Made by a program: the position numbers and the translations under genes. 64,000 nucleotides of DNA. Origin: Pseudomonas sp. stari2 (GTDB lineage Bacteria; Pseudomonadota; Gammaproteobacteria; Pseudomonadales; Pseudomonadaceae). The DNA lies in assembly GCF_040760005.1 (NCBI RefSeq), contig NZ_CP099760.1:2103501-2167500 (forward strand), written 5' to 3'. The notes beneath the pieces were generated by a model. The model was given only the letters and a program-made list of their open reading frames with translations, was not told the origin of the DNA and did not search any database. Shown here one piece after another: positions 61,570 through 63,803 of the stretch. How positions within the stretch are numbered: position 1 is the first letter of the stretch; every line of letters starts with the position of its first letter.

Positions 61570-61917
61570 ATGAGCACAGCCTATCAAGAAGACATCAGCA
61601 GCAACGTGCTGCGCCGCATGAAAGAAGGCGGTTTCGATTTTTCCCGATTCCATCCCATCGAGTTCTACGCCATTTTCCCGGACGAGGAGCGGGCGCGCAG
61701 GGCGGCAGGCAAGTTTCGCGGTGAATCGATCAATGCCCAGGTCAGTGCGCGCGACGACGGCGCGTGGTCCCTGGAATTGAGCAAGGTGATGTACGCAACC
61801 TACGACGACATCGGCGATTTCGAACAGGGCTTTTCGGCGGTGGTCGAGCCTCTGGGCGGCATCATCGAAGGTTGGGGCGTGAAGCAGGAGGTGCGCAACC
61901 GCCATCGTTTGAACTGA
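61570..61917 (+). CDS. rraB: Ribonuclease E inhibitor RraB
   Basis: 115 residues from ATG 61570 (MSTAYQEDISSNVLRRMKEG). The RraB fold is recognised by GFDFSRFHPIEFYAIFPDEE, DDGAWSLELSKVMYATYDD and VVEPLGGIIEGWGVK. It binds RNase E and alters degradosome action on selected mRNAs. Pseudomonas length is slightly shorter than E. coli RraB. A hairpin follows. Confidence 0.88.
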   Translation: MSTAYQEDISSNVLRRMKEGGFDFSRFHPIEFYAIFPDEERARRAAGKFRGESINAQVSARDDGAWSLELSKVMYATYDDIGDFEQGFSAVVEPLGGIIEGWGVKQEVRNRHRLN

Positions 61918-61938: not shown

Positions 61939-61966
61939 CAACGGCTGACCTTCGGGTCGGCCGTTG
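61939..61966 (+). terminator. Hairpin terminator after rraB
   Basis: CAACGGCTGACC and GGTCGGCCGTTG form a 12-bp stem (one wobble) with a TTCG tetraloop, 22 nt after the rraB stop codon, followed by TCGTTTCTG. Confidence 0.8.
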
Positions 61967-62020
61967 TCGTTTCTGCAGCTTGAACATTGCATGGCAAAAC
62001 CCTGAAACAAGAATCCGGCG

Positions 62021-62048
62021 CAAAAAAAAGCCACCTGAAGAGGTGGCT
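62021..62048 (-). terminator. Intrinsic terminator of the candidate small RNA
   Basis: A perfect 8-bp stem AGCCACCT/AGGTGGCT with a four-base loop. On the minus strand it is directly followed by eight T residues. Confidence 0.85.
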
Positions 62049-62161
62049 GAAAGGGAAGACCGGAAGGAGAGGAAACCGGTCAGGGTTACGGCCGGGAGGG
62101 CTGCCGGGGCAGTCCGGATCAGTTGGGCTGCGTGCTTCGTCAGGGACGTTTTGCAGCGGAT
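62021..62161 (-). ncRNA. Candidate small RNA on the minus strand
   Basis: A minus-strand intrinsic terminator (AGCCACCT-CTTC-AGGTGGCT followed by T8; 62021-62048) lies where no minus-strand gene ends. Upstream of it is a second hairpin, GACCGG..CCGGTC (62058-62081), whose 12-nt loop reads TTTCCTCTCCTT, complementary to Shine-Dalgarno sequences. A possible promoter is TTCACT (62196-62191), 17-nt spacing, GATAAT (62173-62168), which would start a transcript near 62161, about 140 nt long. The 61918-62393 gap otherwise holds the rraB hairpin and the sigma-54 promoter. No family recognised; existence is inferred from these signals only. Confidence 0.5.
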
Positions 62162-62342
62162 GCGCGGATTATCCGCAGCCGGCGCCGGGCAGTGAAATCA
62201 ACTCTGACTATGCTGGTGATAGGCGACGGGACTGCGTCGCAATGAGGCGGGGGCGATCAGGTTGGGGCATTTGCCGCACAGGAATGGTGCGGTGCGTGTG
62301 GCGTGAATATCCAACCGATTGAAATCAAAGCGTTTATGCCGA

Positions 62343-62357
62343 TGGCACGGGCCTTGC
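62343..62357 (+). promoter_or_regulatory. Sigma-54 (RpoN) promoter
   Basis: TGGCACGGGCCTTGC matches the -24/-12 consensus TGGCAC-N5-TTGC at every defined position. It lies 37 nt before the ATG of the ATP-grasp gene, leaving a short leader with the AAGGAG Shine-Dalgarno. An enhancer-binding activator such as NtrC would be needed; its site was not identified. Confidence 0.85.
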
Positions 62358-62393: not shown

Positions 62394-63803
62394 ATGATCC
62401 GCACCTATTTTGATGAAATGTACGATGCCGGCGGCCAGATCCGCCCGCATTACCGGGAGTTTGCCCGCTGGCTGGCGGAAACGCCTGACGAACTGCTAGC
62501 CCAGCGGCGACGCGAGGCCGATCTGCTGTTCCATCGTGCCGGGATCACTTTCACGCTCTACGGGGACGAGCAAGGGACAGAACGTCTGATTCCCTTCGAC
62601 ACCATTCCGCGCAGCATACCCGCCAGCGAGTGGCGGATCGTCGAGCGCGGCTGCATCCAGCGGGTCAAGGCGTTGAACATGTTTCTCGCCGACCTTTATC
62701 ACGAGCAACGCATCATCAAGGCCGGGATCATTCCCGCCGAGCAGGTGCTGGCCAACGAGCAATACCAGTTGGCGATGCAGGGGCTGGATCTGCACCGCGA
62801 TATCTATTCGCACATCTCCGGCGTCGATCTGGTGCGCGACGGCGACGGCACCTATTACGTGCTCGAGGACAACCTGCGCACGCCCAGCGGCGTCAGCTAC
62901 ATGCTCGAAGACCGCAAGATGATGATGCGCCTGTTCCCTGAACTGTTCGCAGCCCAGCGCATCGCTCCGATCGACCATTACCCGAATCTGCTGCTCGACA
63001 CCCTGAAAAGCTCAAGCCCGATCGACGATCCGAGTGTCGTGGTGCTGACACCGGGGCGGTTCAACAGCGCGTTTTTCGAACATGCGTTCCTGGCCCGGGA
63101 AATGGGCGTGGAGCTGGTGGAGGGCGCGGATCTGTTCGTGCGCGACGACAAGGTTTTCATGCGCACCACCGACGGCCCGAAAGCGGTGGACGTGATCTAC
63201 CGCCGACTCGACGACGCGTTTCTTGATCCATTGGCATTCCGCCCGGATTCGATGCTCGGCGTGCCGGGCCTGCTGTCGTCGTATCGCTCCGGCAACGTGG
63301 TGCTGGCCAATGCCATCGGCACCGGGGTGGCGGACGACAAGTCGGTGTATCCGTTCGTCACCGAGATGATCCGTTTCTACCTCGATGAAGAGCCGATCCT
63401 GAAGAACGTGCCGACCTGGCAATGCCGTAATCCGTCTGAACTATCCCATGTACTGGCCAATCTTCCGGATCTGGTGGTCAAGGAAACCCAGGGCTCCGGC
63501 GGTTACGGAATGCTCGTGGGGCCGGCGGCGACAACCGCGGAAATCGATGCATTCCGCGAGCGGATCAAAGCCAAGCCCCACGCGTACATCGCCCAACCGA
63601 CGCTGTCGCTGTCGACCTGTCCGACCTTTGTCGAAAACGGCATTGCGCCGCGCCATATCGACCTGCGCCCGTTCGTATTGTCTGGCCGCGAAACCCGGGT
63701 CGTGCCCGGCGGTTTGACCCGTGTGGCCCTGCGTGAAGGCTCTCTGGTGGTGAATTCATCCCAGGGCGGCGGAACCAAGGACACCTGGGTGGTTGAGGAT
63801 TGA
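62394..63803 (+). CDS. Circularly permuted ATP-grasp protein
   Basis: 469 residues, family CP_ATPgrasp (DUF404/DUF407). Signatures: MIRTYFDEMYDAGGQIRPHY, GITFTLYGDEQGTERLIPFD, DGTYYVLEDNLRTPSGVSYM and LVVKETQGSGGYGMLVGP. It probably forms a peptide-like or amide bond using ATP; in many proteobacteria it is co-encoded with an alpha-E protein and a transglutaminase-like protease, a putative peptide-modification system whose product is unknown. It is the first gene behind the sigma-54 promoter, and the alpha-E gene follows 12 nt later. Confidence 0.9.
   Translation: MIRTYFDEMYDAGGQIRPHYREFARWLAETPDELLAQRRREADLLFHRAGITFTLYGDEQGTERLIPFDTIPRSIPASEWRIVERGCIQRVKALNMFLADLYHEQRIIKAGIIPAEQVLANEQYQLAMQGLDLHRDIYSHISGVDLVRDGDGTYYVLEDNLRTPSGVSYMLEDRKMMMRLFPELFAAQRIAPIDHYPNLLLDTLKSSSPIDDPSVVVLTPGRFNSAFFEHAFLAREMGVELVEGADLFVRDDKVFMRTTDGPKAVDVIYRRLDDAFLDPLAFRPDSMLGVPGLLSSYRSGNVVLANAIGTGVADDKSVYPFVTEMIRFYLDEEPILKNVPTWQCRNPSELSHVLANLPDLVVKETQGSGGYGMLVGPAATTAEIDAFRERIKAKPHAYIAQPTLSLSTCPTFVENGIAPRHIDLRPFVLSGRETRVVPGGLTRVALREGSLVVNSSQGGGTKDTWVVED

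Follow-up and report, generated by a model that had tools for sequence, protein, structure and literature searches.

The question raised by this locus is whether a 141-nucleotide (nt) minus-strand stretch, 62021-62161 of the 64,000-nt window of Pseudomonas sp. stari2 DNA analysed here, holds the gene of a small RNA (sRNA) or a chance set of promoter-like and terminator-like matches. An original prediction, made from the letters of the window, had proposed an unannotated minus-strand sRNA with its own promoter and terminator between rraB and an ATP-grasp operon with a sigma-54 match. Every feature that it named was found at its coordinates (the TTCACT-17-GATAAT promoter candidate, the GACCGG/CCGGTC hairpin and a T8 terminator), the location is confirmed, and no minus-strand gene was seen at the locus that ends at this terminator. 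The RNA itself is supported by a conserved position and structure in relatives, and we conclude that the locus very probably is a real, uncatalogued sRNA gene common to many plant- and soil-living Pseudomonas. Transcription would start near 62161 on the minus strand, 7 nt past the -10 hexamer GATAAT (62173-62168), from a sigma-70-type promoter whose weak -35-like hexamer TTCACT (62196-62191) is separated from the -10 by a 17-nt spacer. It would end at 62022 in the T-run of a Rho-independent terminator, which gives a predicted RNA of about 140 nt (62022..62161, minus strand). The 141-nt stretch contains no closed reading frame, with one GTG near its 3′ end, and the RNA is non-coding. At the level of sequence, the locus is thus one with a promoter and an intrinsic terminator of its own and no coding capacity.

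Consensus scans returned 4 terminator-like sites against 4.0 in shuffles, which is no excess, and 2 promoter-like sites against 1.2, which is no better than chance. The folding is mildly better than that of shuffled sequences (z -2.51, with 5 of 200 shuffles equally good). The proof had to come from relatives. A DNA search gave matches in 17 of 57 genomes including the own genome, all from the same genus, and several of them appeared as two blocks corresponding to the promoter and the 3′ end. The ATP-grasp gene was then used as an anchor; it was found in 102 of 119 genomes of the genus, own included, and 90 upstream regions from 89 genomes were examined (one is a second copy), leaving out most second copies of the ATP-grasp matches, most of the lowest-scoring matches and genomes G090 and G096. 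A promoter block of 29 base pairs (bp), CTATCACCAGCATAGTCAGAGTTGATTTC (62194..62222, minus strand, overlapping the -35), occurs together with a TTCCCTT linker and the terminator, in the same order and on the same strand, in 59 of the 90 regions, all 59 with TTCCCTT. It may be noted that a region counted as a carrier when it had linker and terminator and differed from a 20-nt part of the block at no more than 3 positions, so that the near-invariance of the block among the 59 carriers (0 mismatches in 35, 1 in 21 and 2 in 3) is partly by choice. The other 31 regions have at least 3 mismatches and none has the linker plus the terminator; L065, for example, has 3 mismatches and no detected terminator. 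The exact block was also present in at least 119 stretches of named genomes, and among the matches listed 79 of 80 titles are Pseudomonas, with P. koreensis, P. lurida, P. simiae, P. antarctica, P. cerasi, P. caricapapayae, P. viridiflava and P. graminis among the species. Of the 119 stretches counted, 107 run into TTCCCTT and a terminator, and the others comprise 6 that ran off the stretch, 3 variants and 3 without a terminator by our script (one of them outside Pseudomonas).

For the structure we used 121 unique predicted transcripts, taken from the 59 carriers and from 71 of the first 80 named-genome stretches. Their lengths range from 58 to 164 nt and fall into a short group of 58-89 nt (n=44) and a long group of at least 100 nt (n=77), so that short-form relatives would make an RNA of about 58-89 nt where the window would make one of about 140 nt; the stretch between promoter and linker varies in both length and letters. 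The terminator AGCCACC-UCUUCA-GGUGGCU with its U-tract (62048-62022, minus strand, stem 62048-62029) is paired in 98.5% of the cells of an alignment of 77 sequences, 5 of its 7 pairs are changed on both sides, and none of 500 shuffles reached as high a value. Just before it lies the linker CUUCCCUUU (62058-62050, minus strand), which is a candidate seed and the second of two candidate anti-Shine-Dalgarno (anti-SD) motifs. No other part of the transcript, the terminator excepted, is as well conserved as its core UUCCCUU, which is kept throughout the carrier set, and it is predicted to be single-stranded, with a mean unpaired probability of 0.91 over the 121 transcripts as opposed to 0.53 for the part before the linker. 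As read from the alignments, the structure is conserved with compensatory changes and accompanied by a conserved single-stranded seed, and on conservation and covariation the element is more than chance.

The first candidate anti-SD motif is the C/U-rich loop of the hairpin GACCGG-UUUCCUCUCCUU-CCGGUC (62081-62058, minus strand; GACCGG-TTTCCTCTCCTT-CCGGTC in DNA letters), which has a 6-bp stem and is confined to some of the long forms. A hairpin with all 6 pairs that ends exactly at the linker is present in 35 of the 77 long forms, the rate at control positions being 3.9%, and it is fully paired in none of the 44 short forms. Compensatory variants of the stem were seen (GAUCGG/CCGAUC and GACUGG/UCAGUC), and the loops mostly are still C/U-rich (UUUCCUCUCCUU, UUCCCCUUC and CUCCU); against the hairpin, the loop is poorer in C in L044-L046. 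In an alignment of 36 long forms 90.2% of the hairpin cells are paired and 2 of the 6 pairs are changed on both sides, but this percentage is biased upwards because the sequences were selected by a list of 5′ arms made with the pairing table already known, and long forms whose arms were not on it were dropped. The hairpin and loop of the original prediction thus hold for part of the long forms, the widely conserved element being the UUCCCUU linker instead.

A covariance model of linker plus terminator gave one strong match in the own genome (G000) at 55.9 bits, the others listed being at most 27.3 bits. In the searched genomes without the RNA at this site nothing exceeded 31.9 bits, with 150 first-look candidates scored per genome and with carrier genomes having contributed sequences to the model. 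The RNA is apparently single-copy and has apparently not moved elsewhere. In L053-L056, which are reduced remnants, and in P. brassicacearum (L211) part of the promoter region is kept and the body of the RNA appears to be gone; a terminator-like hairpin remains beside the partial promoter region in L054-L056. Since a partial promoter stands there without an RNA body, some lines have probably lost the RNA. L053-L056 and L211 may be regarded as natural deletion strains. Together with the split into short and long forms, this loss of the body in some lineages is a natural experiment from which the contribution of the C/U-loop hairpin could be judged.

As to how such an RNA would act, pairing of its C/U-rich motifs with purine-rich start regions is the mode that we favour as the most likely one, without naming a target. 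The unpaired linker CUUCCCUUU would pair with purine-rich translation start regions and block ribosome binding, and the loop UUUCCUCUCCUU may help this pairing in part of the family. The terminator and its U-tract, together with the pyrimidine stretch next to them, resemble an Hfq-binding 3′ module. The idea that C/U motifs are directed at ribosome-binding sites stands insofar as the motifs are able to pair with purine-rich ones; the pairing action itself we infer, and the search for targets gave no convincing conserved one.

The following results weigh against this reading. On the side of structure, further pair types do not exceed the shuffles (465 of 500 as high for the hairpin and 495 of 500 for the terminator), relatedness alone can raise the other covariation measures, and RNAalifold did not call the upstream hairpin on the 36-sequence alignment. 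On the side of targets, the complement AAAGGGAA lies within 30 nt before an ATG 23 times in the own genome against 21 times for the reversed motif, so there is no enrichment, and AAAGGGAAG, which is complementary to the conserved linker, occurs less often in the own genome (10 times, once in the sRNA gene itself) than the reversed word (28 times). Two candidates were followed in 30 genomes, fruB and dsbB, and neither yielded a convincing conserved target. The 5′ untranslated region of fruB has, by our own reading, a 12-nt perfect match and was rejected, the site being present in 2 of the 30 genomes. For dsbB, AAAGGGAA is present in 12 of the 30 genomes, but it is the Shine-Dalgarno sequence itself and was not accepted. 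Also, since UUCCCUUU is not the exact anti-SD core, the seed may pair outside ribosome-binding sites. It may be noted that the dsbB site occurs in 12 of 26 sRNA carriers and in 0 of 4 genomes without the sRNA, these 4 being also among the more distant genomes, and that gatA and the other candidate sites of L115-L137 were read in the own genome only. Taking the points on both sides together, we consider it reasonably probable that the locus as a whole is what this reading says, that is, a real and uncatalogued gene for a trans-acting base-pairing sRNA.

The same C/U-rich stretches, and the want of a convincing conserved target, would also suit an RNA that is real and works mainly by binding protein, for instance as a sponge for Hfq or another RNA-binding protein. 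We regard this as improbable, because the 140-nt transcript has only one GGA and so does not show the repeated pattern to which RsmA/CsrA binds, because a single conserved linker that is single-stranded and contains C is more suggestive of a seed, and because there is one strong copy in the own genome. Titration of proteins, which the original prediction had offered beside pairing, thus finds no support here.

A cis device for the neighbouring genes is a still less probable explanation than protein binding. The locus is flanked by rraB (61570-61917, PF06877), with speE beyond it, and on the other side by the gene for a circularly permuted ATP-grasp (CP-ATP-grasp) protein (62394-63803, PF14403). 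Read-through of the sRNA terminator would run antisense to rraB, and the block, at a distance of about 50 to 135 bp from divergent NtrC-like and sigma-54 sites, might then serve mainly the ATP-grasp operon. Yet the covarying terminator ends the RNA before rraB, and in between lies the terminator repeat of rraB itself, a plus-strand inverted repeat at 61939-61966. As rraB has this repeat of its own and the sRNA T8 terminator faces the opposite way, the T8 terminator is not needed for rraB. The invariant block sits moreover at the minus-strand -35. Genome G002, in which no ATP-grasp match was found, keeps the block (with three letters changed), a hairpin with the loop UUUUCCCUCCUUU, and the terminator; because the RNA is kept there without an ATP-grasp match, it is not a leader, switch or cis element of the ATP-grasp operon. 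The linker of G002 is changed to CUUACCGUUU, a point against the main reading, and in this genome it is the loop motif that has stayed, not the linker. That a terminator-like hairpin and a promoter-like match have come together by chance, the conservation having another cause such as a DNA-binding site, would agree with consensus scans no better than shuffles, but is hardly credible when many genomes keep linker and terminator, with compensatory changes, and the sequence between promoter and linker is variable.

We return to the base-pairing sRNA and to what may switch it on. GATAAT is the best -10 match in 107 of the 121 unique family members (picked within a 12-position window). The -35 hexamer is weak and variable (TTCACT here, other letters in L081, L082 and L085), which fits dependence on an activator. 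Over the -35 region lies the 29-bp block with the pattern CTAT-N7-ATAG-N-CAGAGTTGATTTC, in which the CTAT, GCATAG and CAGAGTTGATTTC positions are each identical in 57 to 59 of the 59 carriers while the flanks drift. It is located about 190-200 bp from the ATP-grasp start in carriers, and a search of the own genome with its 20-nt right part gave a single full match plus two sites that differ at 3 positions (1 for the reversed control). The near-invariant block, which the original prediction had not noted, points to a dedicated activator, and makes the question of the activator directly testable. By our own count the block, which reads CTAT-CACCAGC-ATAG-TCAGAGT-TGAT, is centred near -54, presumably the geometry of a LysR-type site. 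Some LysR-type activator is a likely occupant of this putative operator and would probably activate the sRNA promoter, OxyR being the candidate.

To judge OxyR we used the pattern ATAG-N7-CTAT-N7-ATAG-N7-CTAT, to which the window matches at 11 of 16 positions, with the two middle tetramers present and the first absent. The 59 carriers score from 10 to 13, 43 of them at least 11 (these being related and not independent), and G002 scores 12; in 80 background loci, copies of the block included, 108 of 625,457 positions score 11 or more. For comparison, the published P. aeruginosa OxyR sites of ahpB and ahpC match the pattern at 13 and 12 of 16 positions (PMC5720770). In five genomes of the genus the ahpC promoter reaches a score of 11 or 12, with the middle spacer C(A/G)GCAGC in the same register; the middle spacer of the sRNA block is CACCAGC in the window and exactly CAGCAGC in L028 and L031. 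This likeness to ahpC rests on register and spacer, by our own reading. Two results go against OxyR. In 40 catalase/AhpC-type loci there is no clear enrichment of the 15-nt left half of the block (18 matches above score 9, or 6.0 per 100 kb, where the background, block copies included, has 10.7), and in other genomes the four corresponding catalase genes (L335, L338, L339 and L342) lack a site of the kind found at L336. The latter is the one strong match of the whole-block matrix in the catalase/AhpC-type loci, upstream of a catalase gene and with a score of 21, where the highest background score is 14.6 in 1.87 Mb on both strands after scores of at least 25, meant to be the block's own copies, were dropped. 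The site itself, ATATCGCCGACATAGCGAGAATTGATTAA (L336:1318, upstream of the catalase gene of G026), is very like the sRNA promoter block. On the whole, we put the action of OxyR on the block at somewhat short of an even chance, and peroxide stress is perhaps the switch for the RNA.

Among known systems, no Rfam family was matched in the window at the gathering threshold; there were five weak matches, none of the AbcR type. Also no report naming this sRNA was found in the top-ranked literature matches, supplementary tables excluded, so that an earlier detection in a list from RNA sequencing is possible. The closest layout is that of AbcR1 and AbcR2 of Sinorhizobium meliloti and other alphaproteobacteria. 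The S. meliloti RNAs have one anti-SD motif in the loop of a 5′ hairpin and a second between two stem-loops, the latter within an ultraconserved stretch, and the LysR-type regulator LsrB drives abcR1 (PMC8844928). The present RNA is alike in its C/U motif in a loop, its more conserved motif between hairpins and its putative LysR-type promoter. The likeness is one of layout only: two C/U-rich motifs are seen in the window and some of the long forms, and the 44 short forms are without the hairpin. It also differs in being gammaproteobacterial, with one strong copy and no Rfam membership. A weak whole-model match was found to MmgR/suhB (RF00519, clan CL00108), at 19.9 bits (E 0.11) in the window and 23.5 bits (E 0.16) in L060, where the small upstream hairpin, the C/U-rich linker and the GC-rich terminator were aligned; these scores are far below the 41-bit gathering score, and by that test the RNA is not a member.

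If the OxyR reading holds, the RNA would resemble OxyS of enterobacteria in being an OxyR-activated small RNA. The oxyS gene adjoins oxyR, whereas the neighbours here are rraB, speE and the CP-ATP-grasp gene, and there is no Rfam match here. Within Pseudomonas, PrrF is reported to be an iron-regulated family that rises with peroxide in P. aeruginosa and P. fluorescens (PMC13104616); the present locus differs from it in matching no Rfam family. A review lists an sRNA among the OxyR-regulated genes of P. aeruginosa (PMC8466533). With the OxyR reading, if true, the genus would gain an sRNA dedicated to OxyR control, next to PrrF and that sRNA. In its fullest form, which we consider unlikely but worth stating, the RNA would be an OxyR-activated and peroxide-induced sRNA of the P. 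fluorescens/P. syringae branch, an independently arisen functional counterpart of OxyS that uses an AbcR-like pair of anti-SD motifs to shut down translation of many messages in oxidative stress. The locus is best filed as a new family of a known kind, the trans-acting base-pairing sRNA. The coordinates, structure and promoter block given here define this family for a large group of environmental and plant-associated Pseudomonas, at a locus that no Rfam family covers.

Some other sequences around the gene may be recorded. Upstream of the CP-ATP-grasp operon on the plus strand are an NtrC-like palindrome CGCAC-N7-GTGCG (62275-62291) and, for the ATP-grasp gene, the sigma-54 match TGGCAC-N5-TTGC (62343-62357), which suggest nitrogen control of the operon; a similar sequence lies upstream in several relatives. 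Upstream of the sRNA block, at about 62234-62249 of the window, there is a further conserved inverted repeat of the CGCTTCATTGCGAAGCG type, imperfect here and possibly the site of another regulator, with a counterpart in many of L022-L089 and the form ACGCxTC-ATTCG-GAAGCGT in other loci. Just downstream of the sRNA terminator, GGCAAAACCCTGAAACAAGAAT (61993-62014) recurs with small changes in L023, L025, L026, L034, L035, L044 and L051, and in some relatives a repeat of the GTAGGAGCTGCCGAAGGCTGCGATC type, resembling repetitive extragenic palindromic (REP) elements, stands in its place.
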